Below, piece by piece: positions 770 through 14,286 of a DNA stretch of 14,286 nt. Within the stretch, counting starts at the first letter, position 1. Every line of letters begins with the position of its first letter. The position numbers were made by a program, and so were the translations under genes. The DNA is from Planctomycetota bacterium. GTDB lineage: Bacteria > Planctomycetota > Phycisphaerae > WQYP01. The notes below the pieces were generated by a model. That model saw only the letters and a program-made list of their open reading frames with translations. It was not told the origin of the DNA and made no database searches. The stretch is from positions 1 to 14,286 of the forward strand of contig JAKAZF010000016.1 in the NCBI GenBank assembly GCA_021826605.1, in the 5' to 3' direction.

Positions 770-799
770 AATCCATTTCTCCCGGTGGTGGTAACCATC

Positions 800-836
800 C
801 TGCGGCTGTAACCGTCGGTCTTAAAATCGGCCGCAG
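800..836. repeat. Intergenic inverted repeat between the DMT gene and the ABC permease
   Basis: CTGCGGC (800-806) and GCCGCAG (830-836) are exact inverse complements separated by 23 bases. The loop contains a second small palindrome, ACCG-T-CGGT. There is no T-run on the minus-strand side, so it is not a convincing intrinsic terminator. It could be an mRNA processing or attenuation hairpin between the two minus-strand genes. Confidence 0.35.
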
Positions 837-868
837 CATTTCAGGCGTGGCGGCGTCGCCCGGCTAAT

Positions 869-2396: not shown

Positions 2397-3768
2397 GGGC
2401 GGCCTCCTTGCTGCCTGGCGCGGCGGAAACCGCAGCCGCATCAGAATAATCATGGCGCTGGTCGATCATGCGTTTAAGCTTGCGATCATGACGCAGAGAG
2501 CCGGGCGGATGCAGGACCACGCACAAATCAAATATGCCGATATCCAGGTTTTTGGTCAAATCCGGATACTGCAAGCGCATTTGCTGTTGGATGTCCCTTC
2601 GCACCTGCTGGTCATCGGTGCGCAGGCTTTCCACGTTAATTTCCATCAGTTCGCGTAAACCATCGAGTTTGAAAACCACCTGCCAGTCATGCGTTAAGCC
2701 TTCCACACGCCGCAGAATATTTTCAAACAGCAGGGGATATAAATTGCCCCCGCTGGCGACGATCAATTCGTCACGCCGGCCGCGCAGGCGGCTCATACGC
2801 ATGCCCTTGAGGCCGCAGGGGCATGGTTCGGGAATCAGTCGCGTGATATCCCGCATGCGATACCGCACCAGCGGCATAACCGTGCGCCGCAACGTGGTAA
2901 ACACCAGCTCCCCCAGCCCGCCGCTGTCCGGTTCTATGATCTCCGAATAAAAATCGGTATCGTCCAGATGGTAAACGTCCGGCTCATCACAAGGTTGATA
3001 TCCCAGGCCGCTGCCAAGTTCCACGCTGCCATAGCACATGCGTACTTTAGCGCCCTGCCACACCCGGTTCATCCATCCGATGGCCTCGCGCGGCATTTCC
3101 TCGGCTCCGCCAATAAGCAGCTTCATCGGTACGCTGCCGTGTTCTTCCGCGAGTTCCGTCAAACGTATCAGCCATGTCGGTTCACCCATGATGACATTAA
3201 ACTCATACTGCTTGAGCCGCCGATAGACCTCCAGCGGATCAACTTTTCCAAAGGCCATGCAAAAGCACCTGGTCCTCATCAGAGCGTTATGCACCAGCAT
3301 GCCGGGAATCCACATGGAAAAATCAAACGCGTTGGCCACCCGATCGGTTGATCGCAGCCCCATTACCCGCAAGCCTGCCGCATCAATTTGGGCAATTTGT
3401 GATAACTCATGTTGATCATAATAAATCTGCTTATTTTTTCCGCTGGTCCCGGAAGATTCAAAAACAATATTGGGCGCCCGACAGATGAAAGCCTTGGGGT
3501 CTGCGATAATATCTTCAGGCATGGTATAAAAATCACCGAGATCTGCCGGCGTGCGAACTTTAGCCGGATCAATGCCCCGATCCTGAAACGCCTGACGATA
3601 AAATTCGCTGTGCCGGCTGACATATTTTACAACCTGCCGAAAACGCTGCGCGCGAAGTCGCGCCACGACCCATTGAGGCGTGGTTTGGTAGATCCGCGCC
3701 AGGGCCGCCGGACTAAGCTGGTCTGCAAAAAAGTCTACCGGATTCAATGTCAGATACCACCCTTTCAA
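2386..3768 (-). CDS. PaaK-like (phenylacetate-CoA ligase family) adenylate-forming enzyme
   Basis: About 460 residues in the ANL superfamily and close in layout to PaaK/CapK proteins. Visible motifs (numbered from TTG 3768) are SSGTSGKNK at 105-113 (ATP phosphate loop), IGGAEEMP from 219, YGSVE at 246-250, YRMRD at 303-307, a CPCG zinc-type motif at 316-319, GRRDE at 330-334 (domain hinge) and GGNLYP at 340-345. The C-terminal PPGSLRHDRKLKRMID stretch carries the usual catalytic lysine region. The family activates a carboxylic acid as an acyl-adenylate and passes it to CoA or another acceptor; the substrate here is unknown. The start is uncertain: no ATG is available, and TTG at 3768 or TTG at 3747 (giving LNPVDFF, more like the family N-terminus) are both possible. 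It follows the aminotransferase after 37 bases and overlaps the SGNH gene. Confidence 0.87.
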   Translation of the reverse strand: MKGWYLTLNPVDFFADQLSPAALARIYQTTPQWVVARLRAQRFRQVVKYVSRHSEFYRQAFQDRGIDPAKVRTPADLGDFYTMPEDIIADPKAFICRAPNIVFESSGTSGKNKQIYYDQHELSQIAQIDAAGLRVMGLRSTDRVANAFDFSMWIPGMLVHNALMRTRCFCMAFGKVDPLEVYRRLKQYEFNVIMGEPTWLIRLTELAEEHGSVPMKLLIGGAEEMPREAIGWMNRVWQGAKVRMCYGSVELGSGLGYQPCDEPDVYHLDDTDFYSEIIEPDSGGLGELVFTTLRRTVMPLVRYRMRDITRLIPEPCPCGLKGMRMSRLRGRRDELIVASGGNLYPLLFENILRRVEGLTHDWQVVFKLDGLRELMEINVESLRTDDQQVRRDIQQQMRLQYPDLTKNLDIGIFDLCVVLHPPGSLRHDRKLKRMIDQRHDYSDAAAVSAAPGSKEAAHAG

Positions 3769-3805
3769 ACTTCCGCTGCTTGTTACCGCGGCTTTGCGCG
3801 TGTTT

Positions 3806-5161
3806 CTATCGCACGGCCTTCATGGCCTGCCCGATAGCCTGCGTCGTAAATTCCAAGTCCTCCGCGCTGTGTGCGGCGCTGACAAACCAGCAGGCTGAGC
3901 CGGAACTGTTGACATGCACACCCTGCATCAGCAACGAATGCCGGAATGCCGCGTAGCGTTGTGTGTTCACCTTTAACAAGTCCCGATAATGTTTCAACGC
4001 ATGGCCGTCCTCGTTAAACAGCACCTGGAACATACTGCCCACGCCCTGCACCACGCAGGGAATATCAGCATCCCTGGCAGCCCGGCGAATCGCTTCCATG
4101 CAGCTTAGGCCATGGCTGTGAATATTTTCCAGTGTTCCAGGCTCATTTATCTTGCGCAGGGTATAAAGTGCGGCAGCCGAGCACAATGGATTGCCGTTGT
4201 ACGTGCCGCCATGTTTTACAATATTGGTGCCCACCTGTTCCATAATCACCCGGCGGCCCGCAAAAGCGCTGATGGGAAATCCGCCGCCGATGGCTTTACT
4301 GAATATTGTCAAATCCGGCGTAACGCCAAAATACTGTGCCGCTCCGCCGCGTGCCAGGCGAAAGCCCGTGACAATTTCATCATAAATCAGCAAAATTCCC
4401 CGTTTGTCGCACTGCTGGCGCAACCAGGCCAGCATCCCCTCTTCCGGCATAATGCAGGCATTGTTAGCAACAATAGGTTCTAAAATAATGGCCGCCGATT
4501 GGGCACCGTGCTCATTAAGCAGGCGCTCAATAATGTCCTTGTGATTCCATGGCGCAATGATGACATCCCCGCTGACTCCGTCTGGAATACCACGCGAATG
4601 CGGGCTGTTATGGGGATGATCCAGCGGGCCGGCTTCCGCAGGCGTGGGGCGGTTGCTCACGGCCAGTACGTCGATCCAGCCATGATAATGTCCCTCAAAT
4701 TTTATAATCCGGTTGCGCCCGGTAAACCCGCGTGCCGCGCGGATGGCCCCGCTGATAGCTTCCGATCCGGAATTCGCATAACGCACCAGCTCTGCCCCGG
4801 GAGCCATGGCGCAAATTTGTTCAGCCAGTTCCACTTCTACCGTGTTGCACGTGCCGAACATCGTGCCGCGCTCAAGTTGTCCCTGCACCGCCGCGACCAA
4901 GCCGTCGTCCGCGTGGCCGAGAATCGCACTGCCATAGCTAAGCAGGTAATCAATAAATTCATGGCCGTCCACATCCCACACGTGTGATTTTTCCCCCCGG
5001 TCAATGTACAGCGGATAGGGCAGCGGCCCCGTGGTGGAACTGCGGGCCGAACTGCTGATTCCGCCCGCCAGCACCTGCTTGGCCCGGGCAAACCATCGCT
5101 GGGATTGGTTGGTGGCATGAATGTCGGGCAGACCCAGAGGATGTACCATCGTTTGTGTCAT
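3806..5161 (-). CDS. Class III PLP aminotransferase, glutamate-1-semialdehyde 2,1-aminomutase-like
   Basis: A 451-residue class III PLP enzyme. Landmarks are NSGSEA at 130-135 (phosphate and cofactor contacts), FEGHYHG at 155-161, YDEIVTGFR at 260-268 (Asp261 to the PLP pyridine nitrogen), FSKAIGGGFPISAFAG at 287-302 (Lys289 Schiff base) and HGGTYNGNPL at 317-326. The NSG-EA, YHG and IGGGFPI patterns resemble HemL, which moves an amino group between adjacent carbons using internal PMP/PLP chemistry. HemL itself is usually about 430 residues and lies in tetrapyrrole gene settings. Here it sits 4 bases after an M20 deacylase and just before an acyl-activating enzyme, which argues for a specialised transaminase or aminomutase rather than haem synthesis. 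ATG at 5161; the ribosome site is weak, so translation may depend on coupling to the upstream stop at 5166. Confidence 0.88.
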   Translation of the reverse strand: MTQTMVHPLGLPDIHATNQSQRWFARAKQVLAGGISSSARSSTTGPLPYPLYIDRGEKSHVWDVDGHEFIDYLLSYGSAILGHADDGLVAAVQGQLERGTMFGTCNTVEVELAEQICAMAPGAELVRYANSGSEAISGAIRAARGFTGRNRIIKFEGHYHGWIDVLAVSNRPTPAEAGPLDHPHNSPHSRGIPDGVSGDVIIAPWNHKDIIERLLNEHGAQSAAIILEPIVANNACIMPEEGMLAWLRQQCDKRGILLIYDEIVTGFRLARGGAAQYFGVTPDLTIFSKAIGGGFPISAFAGRRVIMEQVGTNIVKHGGTYNGNPLCSAAALYTLRKINEPGTLENIHSHGLSCMEAIRRAARDADIPCVVQGVGSMFQVLFNEDGHALKHYRDLLKVNTQRYAAFRHSLLMQGVHVNSSGSACWFVSAAHSAEDLEFTTQAIGQAMKAVR

Positions 5162-5165
5162 ACGT

Positions 5166-6488
5166 CTATTTTACCGGTAAAGTTGTCCAATGTATTGCAC
5201 ACAGCGCAAATGACAGCGCCGCTTCATGCACCGCTTTAAGTTCCACGAATTCATCCGCGCCATGCGCCTGCTCCAGGCTGCCGGGACCCCATACCAGCGT
5301 GGGTGTTTGATCCATACCCCAACGAAGGCCCGCTTCGCAACCCGCGTTGAAACCGGCCCATGGCCTGTTGCGCGTTGTCACACCACGGTCGGTCATCGCC
5401 GCCAAAGCACTTTGCGACAAGGGATGTTGTGCGGATAATTCATGCCCGCCATATTCTTCGGAAAATTCAATTTCCAGGGTGCACCCCCTGCCCTTTCCCT
5501 GGTCGTGCAATTCCCCCAGGCGATGCTCAAAGCGATTTTTCCAAATCGCCAGATCGTCCATCGGCAGCAGTTCCAGGTACCCTGCACACCCGGCTAAATC
5601 ACAGGTGGCACCTTGCCAATTCCCTCCATCCACACGATCCACTGTAATGGGCCGCATCACCGGATAGGCCGCGAACAGTGGATTGGGATCAGGCAGGGCG
5701 AACTCTTTTTCCATTATTTCCAGGTGCTCCAGCACCTCACGCAAGGCGATAATGGCATCCTGTCCCAGCCATTTGACTGTGCCATGCACCGCTTTGCCGT
5801 GCAATCGGATGACGAATCTTACGCCGCCGCGTGAGGCATTCCGTGGTTGTCCTTCCGTGGGTTCCAGGACAATCAACCCATCCGGACGATAGCCCCGCAC
5901 ATAACTGGTTAAGGTGCCCAACCCCACGCAATCCTCTTCGCCGGGGACAATTTCCACCATCACATCGCCTGGTAGGCCGTGCGGATATGTTTTTTTCAGT
6001 GCCGTCAGTGCCGCCAGCGCACTGGCCAGCGGACCTTTCACATCGCAAGCGCCCCGGCCATATATCCGCCCCTCGGCAATTTCCCCTGACCACGGGCCAT
6101 GGGTCCAGCGCCCTGGATCGCCCGCTGAAATGACATCGCTGTGGGCGTTAAACATCAGGCTGCGGCCAACGCTGCAACCTGGAAATTTAATAACCAACGT
6201 GGGCCGCCCGGCCAGTGGAATGTGTCGCAAGGCCGCCTGCCGATAAGTCTGAAGCTGCGTTTCTGACGATTCAAATAATTCTGTTTCAAAGTTGTTTTTC
6301 GCGGCCCACCGGGCGATAAACATTACCAGATTGCCTTCATCGCCGCTGGTGGATGGAATCTGCAACAGCTTCGCAAGCAAATCCTCTGTGGCAGGCTGAA
6401 GCTCCTGGAGGTATGTTTCCAGTGAGCAGCGCATGTCCGATGAATTTGCGGGAATTCCTGCGGGTTGAGTCGTGGTTATTCCAGGCAT
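5166..6488 (-). CDS. M20-family metallo-deacylase (ArgE/DapE-like)
   Basis: A 440-residue enzyme of the M20 family with a complete metal site. NAHSDVI at 114-120 gives His116 and the catalytic Asp118. GRGACDVKG at 144-152 gives the bridging Asp149. PGEED at 182-186 gives the Glu184 base and Glu185 ligand. LEPTE at 208-212 gives a carboxylate ligand, and the C-terminal AHGADEF gives His409. HGKAVHGT at 230-237 marks the lid/dimerisation domain. Such enzymes hydrolyse N-acyl amino acids or peptides, for example acetylornithine or succinyl-diaminopimelate. No signal peptide is seen. The start is ATG 6488; Met19 (6434) is an alternative, and neither has a strong ribosome site. It lies between the HAD gene (34-base gap) and the aminotransferase (4-base gap). 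In this company it may remove an N-acyl protecting group during biosynthesis; that role is inference. Confidence 0.88.
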   Translation of the reverse strand: MPGITTTQPAGIPANSSDMRCSLETYLQELQPATEDLLAKLLQIPSTSGDEGNLVMFIARWAAKNNFETELFESSETQLQTYRQAALRHIPLAGRPTLVIKFPGCSVGRSLMFNAHSDVISAGDPGRWTHGPWSGEIAEGRIYGRGACDVKGPLASALAALTALKKTYPHGLPGDVMVEIVPGEEDCVGLGTLTSYVRGYRPDGLIVLEPTEGQPRNASRGGVRFVIRLHGKAVHGTVKWLGQDAIIALREVLEHLEIMEKEFALPDPNPLFAAYPVMRPITVDRVDGGNWQGATCDLAGCAGYLELLPMDDLAIWKNRFEHRLGELHDQGKGRGCTLEIEFSEEYGGHELSAQHPLSQSALAAMTDRGVTTRNRPWAGFNAGCEAGLRWGMDQTPTLVWGPGSLEQAHGADEFVELKAVHEAALSFALCAIHWTTLPVK

Positions 6489-6522
6489 AACGCTCGCATT
6501 CTTTCGTTCGGCTTAAGGCGGC

Positions 6523-7215
6523 TCAAATCGCGGCCACCTGCGATGTCCATGCCCGGTTCATGATCGCGGCAATTTCGTGCAGGCTGTTGTACGGAATACA
6601 GGCATGGTTCCGCGCCGCCAATTCTTGCGCCAGGACTCCTTTGGCAAAGACCACATCGGCCTGCCGGGACGGGCATATATCACTGCGGCCATCGCCTATG
6701 TAAATGGTTTTTCGCCGGTCTACATGCAGTTCCCTGGCGCTGGTGCATTTGCAATGTGCCGCCGCAGATAAGCAGAATTCCGCTTTGTGCGGGCAGACCA
6801 GGTGAAGCTGCTGATGCTTCCGGGCGATGCGATTGGCCCGAATTTCAATATCGCCGACGTTAAAGCGGTTCAGAATTCTGCGAATAAATTTTTCAATGCC
6901 GTCACTGAGAATAGCAAACGGGACATGATTTTGCCGAAGCAGCGTGATCAGGGGGATAAATCCCGGGTCAATGTCCACCTGATCGATAAAATCGTACAGG
7001 TCATTATCTGAAATGTCCAAAAGTGAAAATTCTTCCCGCAGGCATTCTTCCGATCCAATTAACCCGGCTTTCCACCGCTCTTCCACGAGTTTCCATGATT
7101 CATTGCGTGAAAATCTGTTCACCAATTCGTCCAGCACATCCTGCCGCGAGATCGTGCCGTCAAAATCAAACCACACCTGTGCGGCATGGGGTGCAGGTAA
7201 AATCAAAGTCTTCAC
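6523..7215 (-). CDS. MtnX-like HAD-IB family phosphatase
   Basis: A 230-residue HAD phosphatase, first gene of the minus-strand set. Motif I is DFDGT at 17-21 (Asp17 nucleophile, Asp19 acid/base). Motif II is SDG at 104-106. A conserved-region lysine in CPHKAEF lies at 144. Motif III is GDGRSDICPS at 174-183 with the metal-binding aspartates. The C1-type cap of about 80 residues between motifs I and II, and the GDGRSDICPS block, resemble MtnX (2-hydroxy-3-keto-5-methylthiopentenyl-1-phosphate phosphatase) and phosphoserine-phosphatase relatives. No other methionine-salvage gene is nearby, so another phosphomonoester substrate is likely. The start is GTG 7215, the only in-frame start after a stop 18 bases upstream, with GAGGA about 10 bases ahead of it. 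I see no convincing promoter upstream. Confidence 0.87.
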   Translation of the reverse strand: MKTLILPAPHAAQVWFDFDGTISRQDVLDELVNRFSRNESWKLVEERWKAGLIGSEECLREEFSLLDISDNDLYDFIDQVDIDPGFIPLITLLRQNHVPFAILSDGIEKFIRRILNRFNVGDIEIRANRIARKHQQLHLVCPHKAEFCLSAAAHCKCTSARELHVDRRKTIYIGDGRSDICPSRQADVVFAKGVLAQELAARNHACIPYNSLHEIAAIMNRAWTSQVAAI

Positions 7216-7533
7216 TATGGAAAATCCTCTTCAAATCAAGCATGGTTTTTCCGCCCCGCCCGGCTTTATGTCGCCTTCGGGGCTGCTGTGAGAAAACCAA
7301 TTTTTAATTCTCGATAAACGGGTCTTCCGTCCCATTCATCGCGTGCGTTCCAAAATCCATTGGTATCTTAGGGCAAGAGGGGGGTGAATATCAACCGCAA
7401 TCAATAGTGGAGAATGGTATCGGGGCGTGGCAATATTTCCGGGCAATGCGCTGCGCGGGGAAACTTCACATAGCTGCCGGCTATGCCGTGGTAAAGCGCA
7501 CCCCGCGGGGCGGCCCATGCTTCGGACAGGCTC
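7216..7533. other. 318-bp intergenic region with no gene
   Basis: No convincing coding frame on either strand. It should contain the promoter of the minus-strand enzyme set, but I could not find a good -35/-10 pair. The half next to the pRiA4b-like gene holds a hairpin-bearing repeat element from about 7422. Confidence 0.5.
7422..7507. repeat. Dispersed hairpin-containing intergenic element, copy 1
   Basis: Contains the perfect inverted repeat CATAGC-TGCCG-GCTATG (7468-7484) nested within GCGGGG (7455-7460) and CCCCGC (7501-7506). It aligns by eye with the element at about 9208: both carry ATTTCCGGGC and then, about 25 bases on, TCACATA followed by GCCGGCT-TGCC. The core also matches the element near 13950 (GCCGGCT-TGCCG-TGGTA). 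Confidence 0.5.
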
Positions 7534-8103
7534 CTACCTGCTTAGTCGCGCCAGCGATCTGTTCACTGCGTCGATATTAAACGCTTTGGGGTTAAATTTG
7601 CCCATCCATTCAGCGACCTCCGCATGGTCGGGATGCTCTTTATCGTTGAGAATGGCAAGCTGTTCGTAGTATCCCTCCAGACCGCCGCAATCCTCCGGCG
7701 GACAGGCCATTTCGCCGTCAGTGCAGACAATTGGCTTTTCTAAAACCGGGATTACTTTTTCCACGACAATCGTATGCATCCAACTGTCGCCAAAGTCGTA
7801 TTGGTAAAGGAATTTCTTTCTTTTTCCTATAGCCTTAGCCAGGCTAATTTTCGAGTCATCTTCACCGGTATCATCAAAGTCCTCGAATGGATGATATCCC
7901 GTATATCGCACCTCACCGATTTCAAACTCATGCAGATGGCTATCGTTCCAACCCATGGCCATCTGAATGACGATGTGCAGGCCTGCAAGGGTAAGATTCG
8001 CCGGAACGATGACCCGCCGCCAGATGGACGGCTCGCTTTGAGCCAGCGTAATCGTCAATTCAAATCCGTTGGTGGAAAACCTGCCGAATCCCTTTTTCGC
8101 CAT
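7534..8103 (-). CDS. pRiA4b ORF-3-like family protein
   Basis: A 189-residue protein with the pattern of the plasmid pRiA4b ORF-3-like family (PF07929). It shows an amphipathic strand ending PSIWRRV, a helix TLAGLHIVIQMAMGW followed by HLHEFEI, the strand YQYDFGDSWMH near residues 100-110, the CPPEDCGG motif near 133-140, and a C-terminal FNPKAFNIDAVN. The family's biochemical role is not established; it is often found on plasmids and near toxin-antitoxin or defence genes. The start ATG 8103 is preceded by AAGGAG. That ribosome site is itself formed by the tail of the truncated nucleotidyltransferase remnant, whose stop lies 3 bases before this ATG. It is therefore probably cotranscribed with, and perhaps translationally coupled to, module A upstream. 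Confidence 0.85.
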   Translation of the reverse strand: MAKKGFGRFSTNGFELTITLAQSEPSIWRRVIVPANLTLAGLHIVIQMAMGWNDSHLHEFEIGEVRYTGYHPFEDFDDTGEDDSKISLAKAIGKRKKFLYQYDFGDSWMHTIVVEKVIPVLEKPIVCTDGEMACPPEDCGGLEGYYEQLAILNDKEHPDHAEVAEWMGKFNPKAFNIDAVNRSLARLSR

Positions 8104-8106
8104 GTT

Positions 8107-8235
8107 CTACTCCTTATCACCTGTGAATCGTGGTCGGCTGTGAAATGCCACCGCGTACCCGCCGACAATAACGTACTTAACGCGGGCGGCGTTTAACAAC
8201 GCGACAAACTCGCGCAAGCCTTTGGGAAGTTTCAT
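8107..8235 (-). pseudogene. Truncated N-terminal copy of the module B nucleotidyltransferase
   Basis: An ATG at 8235 opens a 42-residue frame beginning MKLPKGLREFVALL. It matches the first 40 residues of the intact gene at 12544-12993, including VIVGGYAVAFH, with one clear change (Gly to Ser before RPRF). Homology stops directly after the first aspartate of the expected catalytic D-x-D (8115); KE and a stop (TAG 8107-8109) follow. The original ribosome site GGAG-CAACG-ATG is intact, so the stub may still be translated. It lacks the second catalytic aspartate and about 110 further residues, so it cannot be an active nucleotidyltransferase. It begins 16 bases after the stop of the module A enzyme and ends just before the pRiA4b-like start. 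Confidence 0.85.
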
Positions 8236-8257
8236 CGTTGCTCCGTTGTCCTTAATC
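8115..8257. repeat. Direct repeat 1, left copy (module B fragment)
   Basis: Positions 8115-8248 align without gaps to 12873-13006, with 8 mismatches by eye (about 94% identity). Similarity continues after a one-base offset to about 8257. Same orientation as the partner. Confidence 0.9.
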
Positions 8258-8932
8258 TATAACCCGATCAAAAATCACCATGGACAGATGGATGCAAGCT
8301 TCCGCGACCGCTTGCCAGTTCTGCCAGGGTGCGATCAGATTGCGATATTCGGCAAGACCTTCCTCACTAAGATCAAACGGCAGGGGATTGGCCAGTTGAA
8401 TAACCAACTGGAGTGTTGGCGATTCTCCATTGGGTTGCGGATAAAGCGCATCCAGCGTTTTCAAGGCGACAACGACCTCAGCGTCCCCCATGTTGGCGGC
8501 CAGCGCGACAAAATCCAGATAATCGCGTGTGGCGTTGCGTTTAAGAATTAGGATTCCCTTGATGCGCAGGATCTCGGCGGGTGTTGGTAATGTTATCACT
8601 TCGTCTTGGACAGTAACTTTCGTCGTCTCCAACGGGGATGTGCGTATCAGTTGCCGCACCCCAGTCTCGATACCATCGAGGCTTCCAAGAATTAATACGG
8701 GCCGGTTAACGCGCGCCGTCTTCCATCCAGCAACGGATTCAAGCTCCGCAAGAACCTGATCGAACCGTGAACGCAAATCAGTGAGGACGTGGTCGGCATC
8801 ATTTGAGAACCGGTGCCTGGCGTGCATTGCCGACGCGGTACCGCCTACGAGAACCGCCCCTGGAAGAATCCGCTGAAGTCGGCCGGCGGCCAGCAGCAGC
8901 CGCTCCCAGTCAGGTTGAGTGTTGTTGGACAT
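8252..8932 (-). CDS. Nucleotidyltransferase-fold protein, AbiEii-like (module A)
   Basis: A 226-residue protein. The Pol-beta nucleotidyltransferase signature is visible: VLVGGTASAMHARHRF (GG at about 30-31) followed by SNDADHVL, where Asp-Ala-Asp gives the two metal-binding aspartates. LPTPAEILRIKG and ILKRNATRDYLDFVALA in the second half resemble the helical part of AbiEii/AbiGii-type proteins, where such a lysine/arginine-rich segment precedes a DxxD region. AbiEii-like enzymes act as toxins that transfer nucleotides, but many homologues are uncharacterised, so activity is inferred. The start ATG 8932 overlaps the small upstream gene by 23 bases; its own ribosome site is weak, suggesting coupled translation. 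The module arrangement (small protein, then nucleotidyltransferase) resembles antitoxin/toxin order. Confidence 0.8.
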   Translation of the reverse strand: MSNNTQPDWERLLLAAGRLQRILPGAVLVGGTASAMHARHRFSNDADHVLTDLRSRFDQVLAELESVAGWKTARVNRPVLILGSLDGIETGVRQLIRTSPLETTKVTVQDEVITLPTPAEILRIKGILILKRNATRDYLDFVALAANMGDAEVVVALKTLDALYPQPNGESPTLQLVIQLANPLPFDLSEEGLAEYRNLIAPWQNWQAVAEACIHLSMVIFDRVID

Positions 8933-9131
8933 AATGCATCCAAAAGTGATAACGCTGAGCGTAAGGATCCGGCAGATGGGTCTTGCAGACTTGAACTACT
9001 TTTGCGGCAACCGCTCTATCACCCAGCACGTTCTGCCGCAGCTCTACCCAATCTTGCCGTCGGCCGCGGGAAATTATGTCATCGATGGCCGCAAGCGTCA
9101 TGGTCGAAGAATTCAAATGCCGATGCTGCAT
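8910..9131 (-). CDS. Small helical protein upstream of nucleotidyltransferase A (candidate partner or antitoxin)
   Basis: A 73-residue protein from ATG 9131 (MQHRHLNSS); a TTG at 9140 would add three residues. It is probably all helical, with a helix LAAIDDIISRG, a second helix DWVELRQNVLG, then VAAKVVQVCKTHL and a C-terminal aromatic motif DPYAQRYHFWMHYV. I recognise no named domain. It overlaps the nucleotidyltransferase start, the usual sign of a two-gene operon whose products interact. By position it may be the antitoxin or regulator, but nothing in the sequence proves this. The first 27 residues occur again, truncated, at 13166-13249, which supports this frame and start as a real gene. 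Confidence 0.65.
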   Translation of the reverse strand: MQHRHLNSSTMTLAAIDDIISRGRRQDWVELRQNVLGDRAVAAKVVQVCKTHLPDPYAQRYHFWMHYVQQHST

Positions 9132-9175
9132 CTTAACCAATCCACATTTAACACAACTTTACAATAACCGAAGGG
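9052..9175. repeat. Direct repeat 2, left copy (5' part of small gene A and its upstream region)
   Basis: Aligns without gaps to 13170-13293 at an offset of 4118 bases, with about 8 mismatches by eye (about 93% identity). It covers the first 27 codons of small gene A and about 44 bases of upstream sequence. Same orientation as the partner. Confidence 0.9.
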
Positions 9176-9183
9176 ACTATCCC

Positions 9184-9290
9184 GTCAAACCAGCACGGCG
9201 ATTCCATCTGGGCGGGACAAATTTCCGGGCCATATCGCCGCACGAGGAACGGTCACATATCCGCCGGCTTTGCCCGCAATGGAACGCACG
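9184..9290. repeat. Dispersed hairpin-containing intergenic element, copy 2
   Basis: The first part can fold as GTC-aaa-CCAG (9184-9193) against CTGG-gcg-GGAC (9208-9218). From 9212 it aligns with the copy at 7424: ATTTCCGGGC, then TCACATA and GCCGGCTTTGCC. The 11-mer CTGGGCGGGAC is shared exactly with the hairpin at 12309-12341. Confidence 0.45.
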
Positions 9291-9407
9291 ATAAAAGCAT
9301 TCCGACGCGCCGCGACCAAACACTGCGATTTGCCCCCTGATTTAGCGCTATCTCGGCACTGCAGGGAAAAATTGCTGCGTCCAAGACGACTGGGGAGATC
9401 GGCGTTT

Positions 9408-9435
9408 TTGAAAACTCCATTCTTACGGGTACAAT
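9408..9435 (+). promoter_or_regulatory. Candidate sigma-70-type promoter for the methyltransferase gene
   Basis: TTGAAA at 9408-9413 and TACAAT at 9430-9435 are separated by 16 bases, close to the bacterial housekeeping consensus. The predicted transcription start is about 9442, giving a leader of about 40 bases before the ATG at 9482. Confidence 0.5.
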
Positions 9436-9444
9436 TTATCCGTT

Positions 9445-9465
9445 ATCCACCGACTGTCGACGGAT
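9445..9465. promoter_or_regulatory. 21-bp imperfect palindrome in the methyltransferase leader (candidate operator)
   Basis: ATCCACCGAC and GTCGACGGAT flank a single T and are inverse complements apart from two positions. It lies just downstream of the predicted transcription start, where a repressor could block transcription. No separate controller protein gene is visible next to the restriction-modification pair, so autoregulation by the methyltransferase or a host factor are the options. Confidence 0.35.
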
Positions 9466-9481
9466 CATAGAAAGGATATTC

Positions 9482-10354
9482 ATGAGTAGAGAGACAATCG
9501 AATTTTTCGGTGACGATGTCACCGACCTCTATTGGGGCGACGCTTTGGATGTGTTGCGGGAACGTATCCCGGATGAATCCGTCGACCTGATTTTTGCCGA
9601 CCCGCCCTACAATATCGGGAAGGTATTCGGCAACTTTCTGGATCGCTGGCCCTCAGATGAGGCTTATGCTCAATGGTGCTATCAGTGGTTGGAGTTATGC
9701 CTGCGGAAGCTCAAAGCGCACGGCAGTATTTACGTGATGACAAGCACCCAATCCATGCCTTTCCTTGATTTGTACCTGCGGGATCGATCCCTGATTCTTT
9801 CACGCATCGTCTGGCACTATGATAGTTCCGGTGTTCAGGCTAAGAACTACTTCGGATCGCTCTATGAGCCGATTCTGTTTTGCGTAAAAGATGCATGTCA
9901 CTACACCTTTAACCCCGATGCTATAAAGGTGGAGGCTCGGACCGGTTCCCAACGCAAACTCATTGATTACCGGAAGCCGGTTCCGACGCAATACAACACC
10001 GAAAAGGTGCCCGGCAACGTCTGGTATTTCCCCCGTGTGCGTTACCGTATGGATGAATATGAGCAGCATCCGTCGCAAAAGCCCGAAAGTCTTATTGAAC
10101 GTATCATCAAGGCGTCAAGTAACGAGGGCGATATCGTGCTGGATCCGTTTGCCGGAACATTTACCACGGGTGCAGTTGCCAAACGTCTTGGTCGGAAAAG
10201 TATAAGCATTGAGCGAGAGGAGGAGTATATTCCGGTCGGTCTGCGTCGACTGGGTTTAGCCAAGAACTTCCAAGGTAGACCAATTGCAGCTCCAACCAAG
10301 ACTTTTGCTCGCGCCTGCACTGAAAAAGGCGAGGGACTTTTTGGGATCGCCTGA
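9482..10354 (+). CDS. YhdJ-like adenine-specific DNA methyltransferase (beta class)
   Basis: A 290-residue methyltransferase. The catalytic motif DPPYN lies at 40-44 and the SAM-binding DPFAGTFTTG at 221-230. Catalytic motif before SAM motif defines the beta class. The middle closely follows E. coli YhdJ (M.EcoKII) as I remember it: SRIVWHYDSSGVQAKNYFGS, YEPILF, EARTGSQRKLIDYRK, KVPGNVW-FPRVRY-MDEYE-HP-QKPE and IIKASSN-GDIVLDPFAG. YhdJ methylates adenine in ATGCAT, so the same target is plausible here, by inference only. The start ATG 9482 has AAAGGA five bases upstream and a candidate promoter further up. The stop is directly followed by the endonuclease ATG (TGAATG), so the two form a restriction-modification operon. 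It is the only plus-strand operon in the window, consistent with separate acquisition. Confidence 0.9.
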   Translation: MSRETIEFFGDDVTDLYWGDALDVLRERIPDESVDLIFADPPYNIGKVFGNFLDRWPSDEAYAQWCYQWLELCLRKLKAHGSIYVMTSTQSMPFLDLYLRDRSLILSRIVWHYDSSGVQAKNYFGSLYEPILFCVKDACHYTFNPDAIKVEARTGSQRKLIDYRKPVPTQYNTEKVPGNVWYFPRVRYRMDEYEQHPSQKPESLIERIIKASSNEGDIVLDPFAGTFTTGAVAKRLGRKSISIEREEEYIPVGLRRLGLAKNFQGRPIAAPTKTFARACTEKGEGLFGIA

Positions 10355-11455
10355 ATGGAACACGAGTTTACAGCCACAATTAGGGAGATCCTCAACAGGG
10401 AATATGGCAAATCAGCGACAGTTATTTTTTCGGCCAGCCCTCTGTTGAATTATTTGAACATCAAGACACGGGCGGCCTCGCGTGGCTCGAAGTCCAGAGC
10501 ATCATTCGGAAATCTATACGCGCTTTATGTGTTGGTTGAGGACTACATAAAAGGCGGGTTCCATAATTCTGGTGACTACGGTCAATACGAAGGTGCCAAG
10601 TTTGTACAGCTGTTCAACCGGCAACGCGAATTACCCTTTGGAGGAAAACTTCAGAACCACCACATGAACACGCGCCTTAACGACGAATTTAAGCGACTCT
10701 TTCCTGCTTGCGGTCTGGAACCGATTTCCCGCGATGACCAGAGCGGGCGCTACTGGCTGAGAGAGGGGATCCTGGTCGTTGACCTCGGTACCCAAAAAGT
10801 AAATGTGGCGTGTGCCGTATTGCGCATCATCGACGCATACGCCGCAGCTCGGGCGAGCGCGTTCAACATGTTCGTCGTGGACTGTGATAAGCTGCGCAAT
10901 TTATCGCAGGGTCAACTTTACCAGGCGGAGGAATTTATCCGTGCGCTTCTCTCTCCGAATGTCGACGCACGGATCTTCGAGATTGTGAGCTACTCGATCC
11001 TCAAACACTTTTATGCCGAACAGAGCGTCTATTGGGGATGGTCGTATGCAACAATTAAGAAAGACGCCTTGGCGCTCTACAAGACGGGCCGTACGAATGC
11101 TAATGATGGCGGGATTGATTTTGTCATGAAACCGCTCGGCCGCTTTTTTCAGGTAACTGAAACAATTGATTCTCGAAAGTATTTTCTTGATATAGACAAG
11201 GTGCAACGCTTCCCGATTACGTTTGTCGTGAAGTCTAATGAACCCATCGAAGCGATTCGGGACAAGATTAAGATGCAGGCGATGCGGCAATACGGAGTGG
11301 AAAAGATAGTACGCCGGTACATGGAAGCAATTGAAGAGATAATCAATGTGCCCGATCTCCTGGCCAAGTTCGCGGAAGTTGGGAAAGCCGGGAAGCTCAG
11401 CGATGTGATTTCGGAAATTGTGCTGCAGAGCAGAGTTGAGTTCAATTACGATTAG
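10355..11455 (+). CDS. Type II restriction endonuclease partner of the YhdJ-like methyltransferase
   Basis: A 366-residue soluble protein starting on the base after the methyltransferase stop. The likely nuclease core lies near residues 209-269: IFEIVSYSILKHFY (Glu209), then GRTNANDGGIDFVMKP (Asp255) and GRFFQVTE (266-269). A GGID strand followed about 11 residues later by Q-x-x-E resembles a PD-(D/E)XK-type core in which the usual lysine position is altered. This is inference from pattern and position. The N-terminal 200 residues, with an acidic and aromatic FHNSGDYGQYEG segment, may recognise DNA. If the methyltransferase targets ATGCAT, this enzyme should cut there, like NsiI or AvaIII. 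ATGCAT occurs in the window at 7774, 8934 and 9891. I cannot tell whether it is related to those enzymes. Confidence 0.75.
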   Translation: MEHEFTATIREILNREYGKSATVIFSASPLLNYLNIKTRAASRGSKSRASFGNLYALYVLVEDYIKGGFHNSGDYGQYEGAKFVQLFNRQRELPFGGKLQNHHMNTRLNDEFKRLFPACGLEPISRDDQSGRYWLREGILVVDLGTQKVNVACAVLRIIDAYAAARASAFNMFVVDCDKLRNLSQGQLYQAEEFIRALLSPNVDARIFEIVSYSILKHFYAEQSVYWGWSYATIKKDALALYKTGRTNANDGGIDFVMKPLGRFFQVTETIDSRKYFLDIDKVQRFPITFVVKSNEPIEAIRDKIKMQAMRQYGVEKIVRRYMEAIEEIINVPDLLAKFAEVGKAGKLSDVISEIVLQSRVEFNYD

Positions 11456-11564
11456 CCGTTGCCAATTCGCGCTCGTCTGTCGCCATCGCGCGCAATTTCC
11501 CCAATATCATGGGGCGACCTGGTTGAAGGACGCGGCTTAGCATTTTTTTCCCATCGCAACCGCG

Positions 11565-11813
11565 CTACGATACAGTAATCTCCTCCCCTGAAGAACCATC
11601 GGGCATCGAAGTATATTTGCCAACAAGCTCACGGCTTGTAAGCAGAAGCTCAGGCCGCTTGGCATCACGCGCGGCCCAATAATCGTCGTGTCGCGTAATT
11701 GTCCACTGACCTCCTTGGCCGACATAAGTTTGATCAGCGAGGGCCATCACGATCGGAGGCGTGGGAGCACCGGTGGCTGCACTCGCAATACTCAGTACGA
11801 TCGCCAATGGCAT
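11565..11813 (-). CDS. Unrecognised small ORF, possibly a gene fragment
   Basis: An 82-residue frame from ATG 11813. The first 23 residues (MPLAIVLSIASAATGAPTPPIVM) look weakly like a signal or membrane segment; an internal ATG in GTGATG would start at MALADQTYVGQGG. The rest (GGQWTITRHDDYWAARD, then LLLTSRELVGKYT) has protein-like composition with alternating short strands and helices. I know no family for it. No good ribosome site precedes the first ATG. It lies between the convergent endonuclease gene and the VapC-like remnant, on the same strand as the latter. It could be a small real gene, the tail of a deleted gene, or chance. Confidence 0.3.
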   Translation of the reverse strand: MPLAIVLSIASAATGAPTPPIVMALADQTYVGQGGQWTITRHDDYWAARDAKRPELLLTSRELVGKYTSMPDGSSGEEITVS

Positions 11814-11903
11814 GCTCGCCCCGATGGACCTTTCCGCGCATTATGAGACCACACGCAATCACCGGAAGACATCACGCGTGCGCACCGAACGCGATAGCTC
11901 ACC

Positions 11904-12060
11904 TCATTCCTGCAACTCGAGAATCCGCTTCAATGCCAGGGCCCCAGTGTGCTGTTGATCTGGGTTCTGGGGTAATGAGCCGCTGGGGCTGATGGTGTCC
12001 AACTGTGGAAAGTATGTACTGTAGCGTGCCGCGTAGCGGGTAATTAGTCCGAGTCCTTTG
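11904..12060 (-). pseudogene. C-terminal remnant of a VapC-like PIN-domain toxin
   Basis: Directly downstream of the AbrB/VapB-type antitoxin, in the +1 frame relative to it, a frame of about 50 codons ends in TGA at 11904-11906. It begins around GLGLITRYAARYSTYFPQLD, followed by TISPSGS and ending ALALKRILELQE. The pattern LITR...RYxTYFPxL..I.P is typical of the last strand-helix-strand of VapC/PIN toxins of the type encoded just after an AbrB-like antitoxin. The expected 100 or so N-terminal residues, with the metal-binding acidic residues, are missing between the antitoxin stop and this segment. No start codon or ribosome site precedes it. I read it as a toxin gene that lost its 5' part by deletion. 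The assignment rests on pattern memory. Confidence 0.5.
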
Positions 12061-12282
12061 TCAATTCCGCGTAAGTTTCATAATCTCATCGGTGGACAAG
12101 CCTGTGCCGGCACGGCCCCGCATCTGCTCTATCAAGGTGTTACCGCGCCGGCCGCCCGATAGCTTGCGTAAAATAACCTCTTTCCCGCGCATGATAAATT
12201 CCACGTCCGTGTGGGGAAGAATCCCTGTCCGCTCGCGAATTGCCCGAGGTACCGTTACCTGGCCCTTCGTCGTCACCTTCAT
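12061..12282 (-). CDS. AbrB/SpoVT-like (VapB-type) antitoxin
   Basis: A 73-residue protein. MKVTTKGQVTVPRAIRERTGILPHTDVEFIMRG, broken here as MKVTTKGQVTVP, RAIRERTGI and DVEFIMRG, is the standard swapped-hairpin AbrB DNA-binding domain. A C-terminal toxin-neutralising tail follows (GGRRGNTLIEQMRGRAG and LSTDEIMKLTR), as in VapB antitoxins paired with VapC; the LSTDEIM-LTR ending is typical. ATG 12282 is chosen because AGGAG lies eight bases upstream and the domain begins there; the open frame to 12411 adds an unrelated stretch. By family it binds its own promoter and neutralises a PIN toxin. The downstream toxin appears truncated, so this may be a solitary antitoxin or transcription regulator. 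Confidence 0.88.
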   Translation of the reverse strand: MKVTTKGQVTVPRAIRERTGILPHTDVEFIMRGKEVILRKLSGGRRGNTLIEQMRGRAGTGLSTDEIMKLTRN

Positions 12283-12308
12283 GATTGAAGCTCCTATGTA
12301 CAGTCCTC

Positions 12309-12341
12309 GTCCCGCCAGTGCCCAACAACGCTGGGCGGGAC
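12309..12341. repeat. Hairpin in the antitoxin leader
   Basis: GTCCCGCC (12309-12316) pairs exactly with GGCGGGAC (12334-12341), and the stem can extend by AG/CT with one bulged G. It lies between the putative operator and the antitoxin ribosome site. CTGGGCGGGAC recurs at 9208-9218, so this may be a repeat remnant rather than a dedicated regulator. Confidence 0.45.
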
Positions 12342-12344
12342 CGG

Positions 12345-12369
12345 GTAATACTCTTACATGTATTATTAC
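12345..12369. promoter_or_regulatory. Palindromic AT-rich candidate operator of the VapB-type antitoxin
   Basis: GTAATA (12345-12350) and TATTAC (12364-12369) form an inverted repeat around a centre that contains TACATGTA (12355-12362). AbrB/VapB proteins bind such AT-rich palindromes at their own promoters. On the minus strand TTGCGT followed by a TAATAA-like box after about 16 bases could be the promoter. Low-certainty call. Confidence 0.35.
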
Positions 12370-12543
12370 TACTTTACAAGATAGACGCAAATAGAAAGCT
12401 GCGCGTAACACGGGGCATTCATAGACTCAGCCGTTATCAGCTATTTCCAGGGCGTTGCGAACGCCGGGAAGACCGCCGCGTTGATGGCACCCTATCCGAT
12501 ACCTCAGACTCGACGATACACACCCGATAAAATATTCACGATC

Positions 12544-12993
12544 TTATTCCGGCAGCGAAAGTTCCTGGGCGTCGGCAATATCTTTGGGGCGGCCTGCGGC
12601 GAGCTTATTCTGAATCAGCAGTTCGCAACTGATAAAGTTTACCGCCAGTCCGTCCAGCATTGCCTCTTCCCGTGACGTCCACGCCTGATCGAAGGTCACG
12701 CCATCAATAGATGTCATCAGGTCAATGCGATTGGGTGGAAAACCGAGCTGCAATACCAGATCATTTCGACTCAAATCCTGGGCGCTGATGCTCAATTCTT
12801 CAAAGCCAAAGGTATTGAGTGCACCGACGATCCTTTCCCCATTATCAACTGAACTTTCAATAAACAGATCGATATCACCTGTGAATCGTGGTCGGCCATG
12901 AAAAGCCACCGCATATCCGCCGACGATCACGTACTTAACGCGGGCGGCGTTTAACAACGCGACAAACTCGCGCAAGTCTTTGGGAAGTTTCAT
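12544..12993 (-). CDS. Small nucleotidyltransferase-fold protein (module B)
   Basis: A 149-residue protein. VKYVIVGGYAVAFHGRPRF (GG at 25-26) followed by TGDIDLFIE (Asp40, Asp42) is the minimal nucleotidyltransferase G-G...D-x-D signature. RIDLMTSIDGV near residues 90-100 probably supplies the third acidic residue, and LIQNKLAAGRPKDIADAQ near the end resembles the conserved lysine/D-x-x-D helix of AbiEii and DUF-type nucleotidyltransferases. It is complete and uses ATG 12993 with GGAG five bases upstream. It overlaps the small gene ahead of it by 59 bases in another frame. Such pairs are often listed as toxin-antitoxin-like, but activity is not known for this type. Its first 40 codons and upstream region are duplicated at 8115-8257. 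Confidence 0.83.
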   Translation of the reverse strand: MKLPKDLREFVALLNAARVKYVIVGGYAVAFHGRPRFTGDIDLFIESSVDNGERIVGALNTFGFEELSISAQDLSRNDLVLQLGFPPNRIDLMTSIDGVTFDQAWTSREEAMLDGLAVNFISCELLIQNKLAAGRPKDIADAQELSLPE

Positions 12994-13015
12994 CGTTGCT
13001 CCGTTGCGCGTTAAT
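12873..13015. repeat. Direct repeat 1, right copy
   Basis: Partner of 8115-8257, covering the first 40 codons of nucleotidyltransferase B and part of the overlapping small gene. About 94% identical over the ungapped 134 bases. Confidence 0.9.
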
Positions 13016-13126
13016 CAGGTCCAGCAGAATATCCAGACGCTGGGTGGGTGAAAGAGACCTGTAGTAAGCCCGATCGGCGGCATCCGCCGCGAGGTGCGAG
13101 TCAAATGTGCGGGCAATCTTTTCCAT
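12935..13126 (-). CDS. Small protein upstream of nucleotidyltransferase B (candidate partner)
   Basis: A 63-residue protein: MEKIARTFDSHLAADAADRAY, then YYRSLSPTQRLDILLDLI and a basic tail RVVKRRPR. The pattern 'F-S...ADAADR-YYRSL-P-QRLDILL-LI' is one I associate with a family of short ORFs preceding nucleotidyltransferases; it has no assigned function. The AADAADRAYYRSL part may form a helical hairpin that contacts the partner. The long 59-base overlap with the next gene implies coupled expression. A perfect TATAAT box ends 7 bases before its ATG and no ribosome site precedes it, so the mRNA may be leaderless. Confidence 0.7.
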   Translation of the reverse strand: MEKIARTFDSHLAADAADRAYYRSLSPTQRLDILLDLINAQRSNDETSQRLARVCRVVKRRPR

Positions 13127-13132
13127 GCAGAT

Positions 13133-13138
13133 ATTATA
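13133..13138 (-). promoter_or_regulatory. Consensus -10 box (TATAAT) just upstream of small gene B
   Basis: On the minus strand TATAAT is followed by ATCTGC and then the ATG at 13126. This puts the predicted transcription start at or within a base or two of the start codon. No good -35 hexamer lies 17 bases upstream. Confidence 0.4.
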
Positions 13139-13165
13139 CCGAAGCAGTTGAAGGAGGCTATTACT

Positions 13166-13249
13166 TCAGTCTTGCCGTCGGCCGCGGGAAATTATGTCAT
13201 CGATGGCCGCAAGCGTCACAGTCGACGAATTCAAATGCCGATGCTGCAT
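13166..13249 (-). pseudogene. Truncated 5' copy of small gene A
   Basis: From ATG 13249 the first 27 residues match the small gene at 8910-9131 (MQHRHLNSST, then TLAAIDDIISRGRRQD) with one substitution (Met to Val). A TGA follows immediately at the point where homology ends (13166-13170). About 46 residues and the whole downstream nucleotidyltransferase A are absent here. It lies directly upstream of the promoter of module B. Confidence 0.85.
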
Positions 13250-13293
13250 CTTAGCCCATCCACATTTAACGCAACTTTACAGTCACCGAAGGG
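13170..13293. repeat. Direct repeat 2, right copy
   Basis: Partner of 9052-9175. It ends 7 bases from the stop codon of the cyclophilin gene, so the island boundary lies right against that gene. Confidence 0.9.
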
Positions 13294-13299
13294 CAATAA

Positions 13300-13785
13300 T
13301 CAGCCGACGGTGACGGATTTCATTTTCGGGGCAGTCTGTGGAGCACCGGACCGCGAATCTTTCAGCGGCGTGGCGGCCAGTTTATCCACCACATCCAAGC
13401 CGGTGGTTACCTGACCAAAGCAGGTGTATTGGCCATCCAGGTGCGGGGAATCCGCGTGCATAATAAAAAACTGCGAGCCGGCAGAATCCGGATCGGATGA
13501 ACGGGCCATGCTGATGACGCCGCGGACATGTTTGCGCTTGCTGAATTCCGCTTTGATGTGGTAACCCGGGCCGCCGGTGCCAGTGCCGGTGGGGCAGCCG
13601 CCCTGTACCATGAATCCCGGAATAATGCGGTGAAATGTCAGGCCGTTATAAAAGCCCTTTTTGGCCAGCGTGACAAAATTCTCAACCGTTTGTGGGGCCA
13701 CATCAGGCCAAAGTTCCAGTTCAATAACGCCCTGATCGGTATCCATGCGAATATGCGGGGCAGCGGGTTTGGCGGTTTCCGTCAT
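13300..13785 (-). CDS. Cyclophilin-type peptidyl-prolyl cis-trans isomerase
   Basis: A 161-residue cyclophilin. It catalyses proline cis-trans isomerisation and assists folding. The signature FHRIIPGFMVQGG carries the active-site arginine and aromatic residues; it is followed by GTGTGGPGYHIKAEF, GSQFFIMHADSPHLDGQYTCFGQV and the usual C-terminal DKLAATP and VTVG. The length is typical of bacterial PpiA/PpiB forms. There is no signal peptide, so it is cytoplasmic (PpiB-like). ATG 13785 is preferred because GAGGAA lies eight bases upstream; an earlier in-frame ATG at 13818 has no good ribosome site. It is probably an ordinary chromosomal gene that marks the right flank of the island. Confidence 0.95.
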   Translation of the reverse strand: MTETAKPAAPHIRMDTDQGVIELELWPDVAPQTVENFVTLAKKGFYNGLTFHRIIPGFMVQGGCPTGTGTGGPGYHIKAEFSKRKHVRGVISMARSSDPDSAGSQFFIMHADSPHLDGQYTCFGQVTTGLDVVDKLAATPLKDSRSGAPQTAPKMKSVTVG

Positions 13786-13889
13786 GCTGTGATTCCTCAA
13801 AGTTAGCTCCGCCATCAACTTCAGCGTAATGGCTGAAATCTTTTATAACCGATAACCAGCCCTGACAAAAGCCGCCGGCGAGAATTGAT

Positions 13890-13985
13890 TGGGCGTGGCC
13901 GGCGCGCAAAATAAGCGCGCCAACCCGAGTCTCCCGCCGCGCCATAAAACCGCCGGCTCTGCCGGTGGTACCGCGCAGGAACGCA
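13890..13985. repeat. Dispersed hairpin-containing intergenic element, copy 3
   Basis: Begins with GGGCGTGGC, also present at 7422-7431. It contains the perfect inverted repeat GGCGCGC-aaaataa-GCGCGCC (13901-13921) and then CATAAAACCGCCGGCTCTGCC with GGTGGTA. The latter matches the core of copy 1 (GCCGGCT-TGCCG-TGGTA, then GCGC). Confidence 0.45.
13944..13969 (-). terminator. Candidate intrinsic terminator after the right-hand partial gene
   Basis: On the minus strand ACCACCGGC-AGA-GCCGGCGGT forms a 9-bp stem with one A-C mismatch and is followed by TTTTAT. It lies about 70 bases after the stop of the gene ending at 14041. It coincides with the repeat core, so the terminator function is uncertain. 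Confidence 0.35.
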
Positions 13986-14040
13986 GATCAGGAACCTTTT
14001 GAACTGCCTTGGATAACCGCGCCGATCCCGGCCAATCCTC

Positions 14041-14286
14041 TTACCGTCCCGGCCCGCCCTGATGCAATGTGATGGTGCCGGCATCGGCTGTGCCGCCGGC
14101 GGATACAGTGACAGGTTTGCGACTGCGGCCAAAGCCCACGCCCCGATCAATGATCAGAATCTGATACTTGCCGGCGGGCGCATTGGTAATGCTGAAAGTT
14201 CCATCTGAAGCTGTTTTGGCAAAGCCGGTGACCTGCCAGATTGTCTGGCCCGCCTTTGGATGGGGAAACCATCCGCGTCGGCCTTG
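14041..14286 (-). CDS. C-terminal end of a carboxypeptidase-regulatory-like domain protein (N-terminus outside window)
   Basis: An open frame enters from the right edge and ends with TAA at 14041, giving 81 residues. The region DGTFSITNAPAGKYQILIID followed by VTVSAGGTADAGTITL is the classic last part of a CarboxypepD_reg / SpaA-like beta-sandwich, where a G-F-x-I-x-x-x-P-A-G-x-Y strand turn is diagnostic. Such domains occur in secreted or outer-membrane proteins, often as repeats. The rest of the protein, including any signal peptide or enzyme domain, is beyond the window. A glycine/arginine ending (HQGGPGR) closes the protein. Confidence 0.72.
   Translation of the reverse strand, partial: QGRRGWFPHPKAGQTIWQVTGFAKTASDGTFSITNAPAGKYQILIIDRGVGFGRSRKPVTVSAGGTADAGTITLHQGGPGR

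Follow-up and report, generated by a model that had tools for sequence, protein, structure and literature searches.

The question raised by this locus was how two nucleotidyltransferase modules, here called A and B, came to lie at a single chromosomal site with each intact module adjoining a truncated piece of the other. The window comprised the whole stretch analysed, 14,286 nt at positions 1-14,286 of the forward strand of contig JAKAZF010000016.1 (GCA_021826605.1), from a Planctomycetota bacterium of the lineage WQYP01 whose genome consists of 216 contigs. The relatives used in the synteny comparison were multi-contig drafts. According to this comparison, the region bounded by a HAD-hydrolase gene and a cyclophilin gene, approximately 7409-13298 in the window, was a variable toxin-antitoxin island. 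The homology of the left flank stopped at 7395-7410 in all five relatives compared, and that of the cyclophilin side started at 13299-13300 in all four relatives compared. Toxin-antitoxin modules of different classes were clustered at this one site, with A, B and vapBC remnants lying between the HAD and cyclophilin genes in both the window and the congener G002. The same island held A and vapBC in G004 and B in G007.

Module A is an AbiEii/MenT-like nucleotidyltransferase pair. A2 (8252-8932, minus strand) is an intact AbiEii/MenT-like nucleotidyltransferase of 226 aa, and its small partner A1 (8910-9101, minus strand) is an intact protein of 63 aa with a 23-nt overlap with A2. The start of A1 was uncertain between ATG 9131 and ATG 9101; homologues from three other lineages aligned from about 9101. 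A1 preceded A2 in three of three distant loci (L050, L182 and L183). A2 scored above the Pfam cut-off for AbiEii and was classed as a nucleotidyltransferase of the AbiEii/DUF1814 type. In an alignment of 26 A2 sequences, G30, G31, S43, D45, K125, R136, D137 and D140 were invariant and D47 was nearly so; the assignment of the conserved A2 and B2 active-site residues to motifs is partly an assumption of ours. The predicted A2 model aligned best with MenT3, JHP933 and MenT1 (VIA-align), and Foldseek returned nothing for A2 below E 0.001. A1 matched no Pfam family. A2 matches were found in 5 of 198 genomes, this one included, and the A2 scan of genome contigs gave three loci, among them L184, which is the G002 contig. 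The only nearly whole A2 outside the window was in G091, on a contig other than that of its B-type matches.

Module B is a MenT1-like pair. B2 (12544-12993, minus strand; 149 aa, intact) is a DUF6036/DUF2204 MenT1-like nucleotidyltransferase that matched MenT1 with an E value of 1.7e-7, contained GG and GDID in its translation and was under purifying selection (dN/dS 0.16-0.22). Its small partner B1 (12935-13126, minus strand; 63 aa, intact) overlaps it by 59 nt. In 29 of 30 loci, this one included, a short upstream ORF overlapped the start of the B-type enzyme, and 10 of these ORFs were recognised as B1 by similarity. Neither B1 nor a 13-sequence B1 profile matched MenA1 or another convincing solved structure, and MenA1 likewise stayed unmatched when A1, B1 and the profile were compared with solved structures at E <= 1, a comparison of short proteins by sequence alone. 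We also considered that B might have a site-specific boundary at 13165, where the window and G002 agree within about 2 bp; selection acting on the promoter of B1 accounts for this agreement equally well.

The fragments were evident as two repeat pairs, D1 (8115-8248 versus 12873-13006) and D2 (9049-9175 versus 13167-13293). Both were direct, on the same strand and in the same order, and they were the largest direct repeats in the window. The first-pass annotation had described two direct repeat pairs in the same order, and a repeat search of the window supplied these breakpoints; the annotation's estimate by eye of 8/134 mismatches was exact for D1, and that of about 8/124 for D2 became 9/127. 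The blastn E values of the two pairs, 1e-53 and 3e-48 for the window against 13 fetched loci, were far beyond chance. Across the 216 contigs of the genome, the module regions matched nothing at E <= 0.001 besides the modules themselves and these fragments. The truncated start of the B enzyme reported next to intact A (8107-8235) was found there, and the HAD-proximal fragment as a whole (8107-8248, minus strand; homologous part 8115-8248) held the last 23 codons of B1 besides the first approximately 40 codons of B2. The overlap of B1 with B2 over 12935-12993 explains why D1 includes the end of B1; the intact-side copy of D1 (12873-13006, minus strand) is partly dual-coding. The B fragment comes from the interior of the B operon, and its ORF of 42 codons stops short of the Asp-x-Asp motif, which we take to be catalytic in B2. 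The truncated start of the small A gene was likewise present beside intact B (13166-13293, minus strand) as the first 27 codons of A1 (ATG 13249), closed by TGA at 13166-13168, together with the leader. The intact-side copy of D2 (9049-9175, minus strand) covers the A1 5' end and the upstream leader. D2 extends beyond the A1 start into the 5' flank as far as 13293, which is 6 bp short of the cyclophilin-side homology.

Between the copies, a stretch at 9191-11980 that G002 and G004 lack at their A-vapBC junction contained an adenine-specific DNA methyltransferase of a type II restriction-modification (RM) system (9482-10354, plus strand) and a type II restriction enzyme (10355-11455, plus strand; PADLOC REase_II, E 2.1e-158). 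It was followed by a 78-bp remnant of the vapC 3' end (11981-12058, minus strand), which matched the end of the intact G004 PIN-domain gene, and by a vapB-like antitoxin that has lost its toxin (12061-12282, minus strand). Window positions 9190-9192 to 11981 corresponded to G002 55608-55755 and G004 1600-1745; the RM genes take the place of a spacer of about 145 bp within the left-hand A-vapBC block. The presence of RM genes between the copies as a result of the duplication was rejected, since the RM-free site was seen in both relatives. The first-pass annotation had proposed a search for an empty site lacking 9176-12543; G002 and G004 lacked the RM part of it and carried vapBC or its remnants beside A. 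A copy of a dispersed repeat of about 90 nt lies at 9207-9290, just upstream of module A. The repeat was rejected as a specially stable hairpin (folding energy z -1.34; 19 of 200 shuffles folded as well).

The gene order in the relatives was then compared. The order in G002 was HAD, A leader, other genes, A, vapC'B', DUF488, B, A leader and cyclophilin. It was A, vapC, vapB and DUF488 in G004, and HAD, B, A1-like leader and DUF488 in G007, in which B stands where the window has just the B fragment. In G007, approximately 230 bp separate B from the A remnant, which is strongly diverged. B followed by A or an A remnant in the same orientation was thus observed at four places (window left, window right, G002 right and G007 left), and this recurrence fits an ancestral B-A array present twice. 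The two B positions, each adjoining A or what is left of it, are probably older than the species. An intact undivided B-A array, for which the first-pass annotation had proposed a search in relatives, was absent from the 198 genomes searched, its own included; these are drafts, and this absence weighs little. An old B-A duplication before the split of the window and G002 lineages, with separate losses per lineage in the toxin-antitoxin island, is the reading that we somewhat favour.

The relative age of the two repeat pairs was explored with K2P neighbour-joining trees. Equal age read from equal percent identity was rejected, since D1 is slow and the leader fast: between the window and G002, the D1 segment was 4.5% diverged and the rest of B2 12.5%. 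The percent identities of D1 and D2 are non-comparable clocks because D1 is a slow, partly dual-coding segment. In the D1 tree of 8 sequences, from which more distant B genes were left out, window B grouped with G002 B at 0.81 and with its own fragment at 0.07. In the D2 trees, window A and the A1 fragment clustered at 0.82-0.92 in four taxon sets; the G007 piece, which is strongly diverged, was absent from the first of these trees, and once it was included the window pair received 0.91 (six sequences) and 0.82 (all eight). These short trees give moderate support to a split of the B pair before, and of the A pair after, the window-G002 split. In a direct comparison of the D1/D2 ratios, the age difference had a bootstrap of 0.89, and both topologies were recovered jointly in 0.63, the segments being short. 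Window B was nearer to G002 B than to its own fragment in just 0.67 of resamplings, and the B fragment, with 9/134 mismatches to G007 B and 8/134 to window B, did not lie nearer to the former. The full-length B genes of the window and G002 were 88.7% identical, and the left flank 85.0%. Those of G002 and G007 were only 79.4% identical though their flanks reached 88.8%; the HAD-side B of G007 is accordingly an old paralogue or xenologue of the B found in the window and G002. Moreover, the cyclophilin-side A leaders of the window and G002 differed at 10/38 positions, whereas the two window copies differed at 4/38. The cyclophilin-side leaders were not closest relatives, and homogenisation or a second event must therefore be added to the old-duplication model.

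These results bear on the explanation first proposed, that a single B-A array was duplicated within the window's own lineage, B was lost from one copy and A from the other, and selection kept one of each. The common order and strand, the similar raw divergence of the pairs and the clustering of window A with the A1 fragment agree with it, but the raw divergence compares a slow dual-coding segment with a fast leader, the D1 tree places window B with G002 B and not with its own fragment, and B with an A leader already stands on the cyclophilin side in G002. The outline of duplication and complementary loss was supported by the two B positions; its timing in the window's own lineage was weakened by G002. 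Furthermore, module A was broken in all three other genus genomes that carry it, so that selection to keep both modules, deduced from one intact copy of each, is unsupported. The proposal as a whole is unlikely.

It was also considered that there was no array duplication, and that B and A were inserted separately into a hotspot with the fragments produced by independent illegitimate recombination. A-leader scraps with other end points and divergences occurred in G002 (two) and G007, and one matched the local A leader without a difference over 57 bp and is therefore recent. B was found at unrelated loci in G001, G005 and G006, where no A leader was detected, and in G001 it overlaps the end of an integrase-core ORF. 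A2-type proteins of approximately 70% identity in Pseudomonas and Chloroflexi point to lateral transfer. Against these observations stand the B-then-A order in one orientation at four island places and the B-side junction common to the window and G002 within about 2 bp, a limit that selection acting on the B promoter could likewise impose. Separate insertion is rather doubtful on this balance. The number of A-leader pieces, four separate ones in the window, G002 and G007 with one identical to its likely source over that length, would also suit an A1 leader that is a preferred recombination substrate, pieces of which are recopied in the island and seed module swaps behind a shared leader; this is quite improbable.

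The retained pieces may instead be functional: the A leader would provide B with a promoter or a leader ORF, and the B slice would serve the A operon as a tail that is regulatory or translated. In the window and G002 alike, some 40 bp separate B1 from an A leader upstream of it, a promoter-like site (9 of 12) occurs in both window copies where shuffles gave 0.4 sites per region, and both fragments are short open frames. However, the right copy in G002 retains only the part upstream of the leader-ORF start and conserves neither the leader ORF nor the promoter-like site, the other B loci in G001, G005 and G006 have no detected A leader, and a TATAAT-like element is located directly ahead of B1 in the window, G002, G006 and G007. 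This makes a function for the pieces highly improbable. The leader ORF as a conserved functional uORF was rejected because it is missing from the G002 right copy.

Under the old-duplication reading, B would have stood at two positions, HAD-side and cyclophilin-side, before the split from G002, with an A module or leader directly upstream of each; duplication of an old B-A array would leave such a pattern. Each lineage would afterwards have lost modules independently. On the HAD side of the window, B would have been reduced to the 134-bp slice behind A2 and A kept, and on the cyclophilin side A would have been reduced to its first 27 codons and leader and B kept. Later homogenisation or recopying probably affected the A-leader pair, and the RM system would have come in between A and the decayed vapBC. 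B, and A where intact, are probably MenAT-type modules, in which tRNA ends would be modified by the nucleotidyltransferase, and the small protein encoded upstream would inhibit this enzyme. The repeats, gene content, synteny, intactness and relative divergences are the data on which this reading rests. Two further observations count against it: the A-side breakpoints differ (9049 versus 9138), and both immediate flanks of window B are unlike those of G002 B, which requires two deletions in the window.

Taken together, the evidence suggests ordinary gene turnover in a hotspot that started from an old duplication, rather than selective maintenance of a balanced pair. The locus is a clear, synteny-ordered example of how toxin-antitoxin modules are duplicated, truncated and lost at a single chromosomal site. 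It also carries a caution, as fragments of overlapping genes evolve slowly and two repeat pairs of equal identity need not be equally old. Moreover, one intact copy of each module is a poor sign of selection when congeners show loss of one module.

The locus was not found in the literature at the level of titles and the beginnings of abstracts, in searches made by terms other than accession. No paper combining DUF6036 with a nucleotidyltransferase was found, and a search for toxin-antitoxin with reciprocal loss gave only a result that was off-topic by its title and abstract. Among known systems, AbiE (AbiEi/AbiEii) resembles module A in that A2 passes the Pfam AbiEii cut-off. It differs in that the gene beside A2 encodes 63 aa without a Pfam match and is not of the AbiEi type (COG5340), and A2 had no PADLOC match. 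The AbiEi antitoxin is larger than 63 aa. The MNT-HEPN toxin-antitoxin systems differ in their partner, as neither A1 nor B1 had a HEPN match in Pfam at E <= 0.1. The likeness to MenAT1/MenT is closer: the B2 sequence is related to MenT1, the A2 model is nearest to MenT3, JHP933 and MenT1, and both enzymes have a 63-aa small upstream partner. According to the MenAT1 reports, MenA1 has 68 aa and appears to be without a DNA-binding domain; of the 21 menA1 genes identified, 15 were located upstream of a menT-like ORF (PMC10435456, PMC11375011). The present modules differ in that B1 has no sequence match to MenA1 and their genes overlap. For TAS islands, in which differing toxin-antitoxin classes lie close together, preferential incorporation or transfer of cassettes has been suggested (Makarova et al., 2009; PMC2701414). 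A, B, vapBC and the RM system lie close together in the same manner at one chromosomal site; in contrast to the islands described there, the decay and rearrangement here can be traced between congeners, and duplication of one module type was probably also involved.

The window (bases 27552-41837 of contig C199 in a 3.86-Mb draft genome) was searched for repeats, and the two largest direct repeat pairs were aligned. The B pair, D1, linked a fragment at 8115-8248 with positions 12873-13006 inside intact module B (B1 and the MenT1-like B2), with 8 mismatches in 134 positions. The A pair, D2, linked positions 9049-9175, at the 5' end of intact module A (the 63-aa partner A1 and the AbiEii/MenT-like nucleotidyltransferase A2), with a fragment at 13167-13293, with 9 mismatches in 127. 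The reciprocal pairs reported by the first-pass annotation were thus real at the aligned breakpoints, and the observation of paired modules with reciprocal fragments stands. The module regions matched nothing else in their own genome at E ≤ 0.001.

The left flank ended in a HAD-family hydrolase gene, and its homology to relatives stopped at 7395-7410 in 5/5 genomes (G002, G003, G004, G005 and G007). On the right, homology set in at 13299-13300, where the cyclophilin gene has its stop codon, in 4/4 (G002, G004, G007 and G017). The stretch between these flanks is a variable island. The window order was HAD, PRiA4 ORF3 gene, B fragment, A, type II restriction-modification (RM) genes, vapC remnant with vapB, B, A fragment and cyclophilin. 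In G002, HAD was followed by a piece of the A leader, molybdopterin genes and others, a copy of A that had lost 362 bp from its interior, a vapC/vapB remnant, DUF488, B, an A leader, further genes and cyclophilin. The G007 order was HAD, B, ~230 bp, a diverged A1-like leader, then DUF488 and more; G004 had truncated A, vapC, vapB, then DUF488 and more. The HAD contig of G004 stopped within ~10 bp of the point where the G007 B started, and the window B fragment sat at the HAD-side position. The PRiA4 ORF3-like gene (7534-8103), which separates the B fragment from the HAD flank, had no counterpart by blastn in the relatives' loci compared. The RM pair (9482-11455), with both frames open, was absent from the corresponding site in G002 and G004. 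A dispersed ~90-nt repeat lay at 9191-9300 and 7419-7487, with at least 21 matches in its own genome (E ≤ 0.01; 40 of 49 candidates scored) and many copies in G001 and G002; it gave a long hairpin fold, yet one no better than shuffles (z -1.34).

The similar divergence of both pairs had been read as the mark of one duplication. D1 covers a 59-nt stretch encoding both B1 and B2, and it diverged by 4.5% between the window and G002 vs 12.5% for the rest of B2 (6.7% vs 26.7% between the window and G007). As D1 is a slow, partly dual-coding segment, similar raw divergence is no sign of a single event. Flank identities (window-G002 85.0%, window-G007 83.3%, G002-G007 88.8%, G004-G007 96.4%) made the window the outgroup to G002, G004 and G007. 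Full-length B identity was 88.7% for window-G002 and 79.4% for G002-G007; the latter is far below their flanks, which marks the HAD-side G007 B as an anciently separated paralogue, or else a xenologue, of the window/G002 B. In the D1 tree, the window B grouped with the G002 B at 0.81 and with its own fragment at 0.07, and the fragment joined the window B/G002 B pair (0.51) or G007 (0.44). Trees of D2 paired the window's two copies with each other, apart from G002 and G004, at 0.92 (five sequences), at 0.88 after two short G002 pieces were added, at 0.91 with the G007 piece and at 0.82 with all eight sequences. At face value, the B pair would predate and the A pair postdate the window/G002 split. 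Resampling counsels caution on these tree-based ages: the window B was nearer the G002 B than its own fragment in 0.67, the A pair was closest in 0.93, both topologies occurred jointly in 0.63, and the relative-age difference between pairs reached 0.89. A recent single duplication, which would give both pairs one age, is judged quite unlikely.

G002 carried two further A-leader pieces, at 45992-46059 and 58943-59073, and G007 one at 19559-19699; their end points differed, and the first showed no difference from the leader of the G002 A across 57 bp. Independent insertions leaving such stray fragments would be a rather unlikely source of the window's reciprocal pairs. The window A leader at 9176-9206 matched the right-hand G002 leader at 29/31 positions vs 22/31 for G002's own A, a pattern that points to exchange between island positions. 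A solitary vapB adjoined a 78-bp vapC tail (11981-12282), and the vapC deletion junction was common to the window and G002 within 1-2 bp. G004 retained a PIN-domain vapC, though nearer G002 by flanks; the common junction despite this gene also hints at exchange at the site. In G002, ~9 kb with molybdopterin genes lay between two A-leader copies (contig C116, 46060-55017; loci L150 and L043), and G007 had no counterpart of this block at the corresponding place.

Among the other genomes of the genus, the B frame was open in 5/5 whose copy was close, defined as ≥70% identity (G001, G002, G005, G006 and G007). Only 45-46% relatives occurred in G003 and G004, and the G004 one carried a stop. With B2 dN/dS values of 0.22 and 0.16, B is under purifying selection. 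In G001, the B module overlapped the end of an integrase-core ORF (locus L048, 44-1504, contig C105), which we take to be of the IS3 type and which is a possible vehicle for B. Module A was broken in 3/3 other genus genomes carrying it (G001 at another locus, G002 and G004), so one intact copy of each module in the window is poor evidence for selection on both, and the claim that selection keeps both was not borne out. The parts of A common to the window and G002 had dN/dS of 0.10-0.26, which suggests that A was functional until recently.

Duplication with complementary loss survived in outline, though probably not as a single recent event. Judged from sequence comparison, an old duplication within a toxin-antitoxin island is more likely, with separate decay afterwards and a degree of later copying. 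This island is of a known kind, that of the TAS islands described in PMC2701414.
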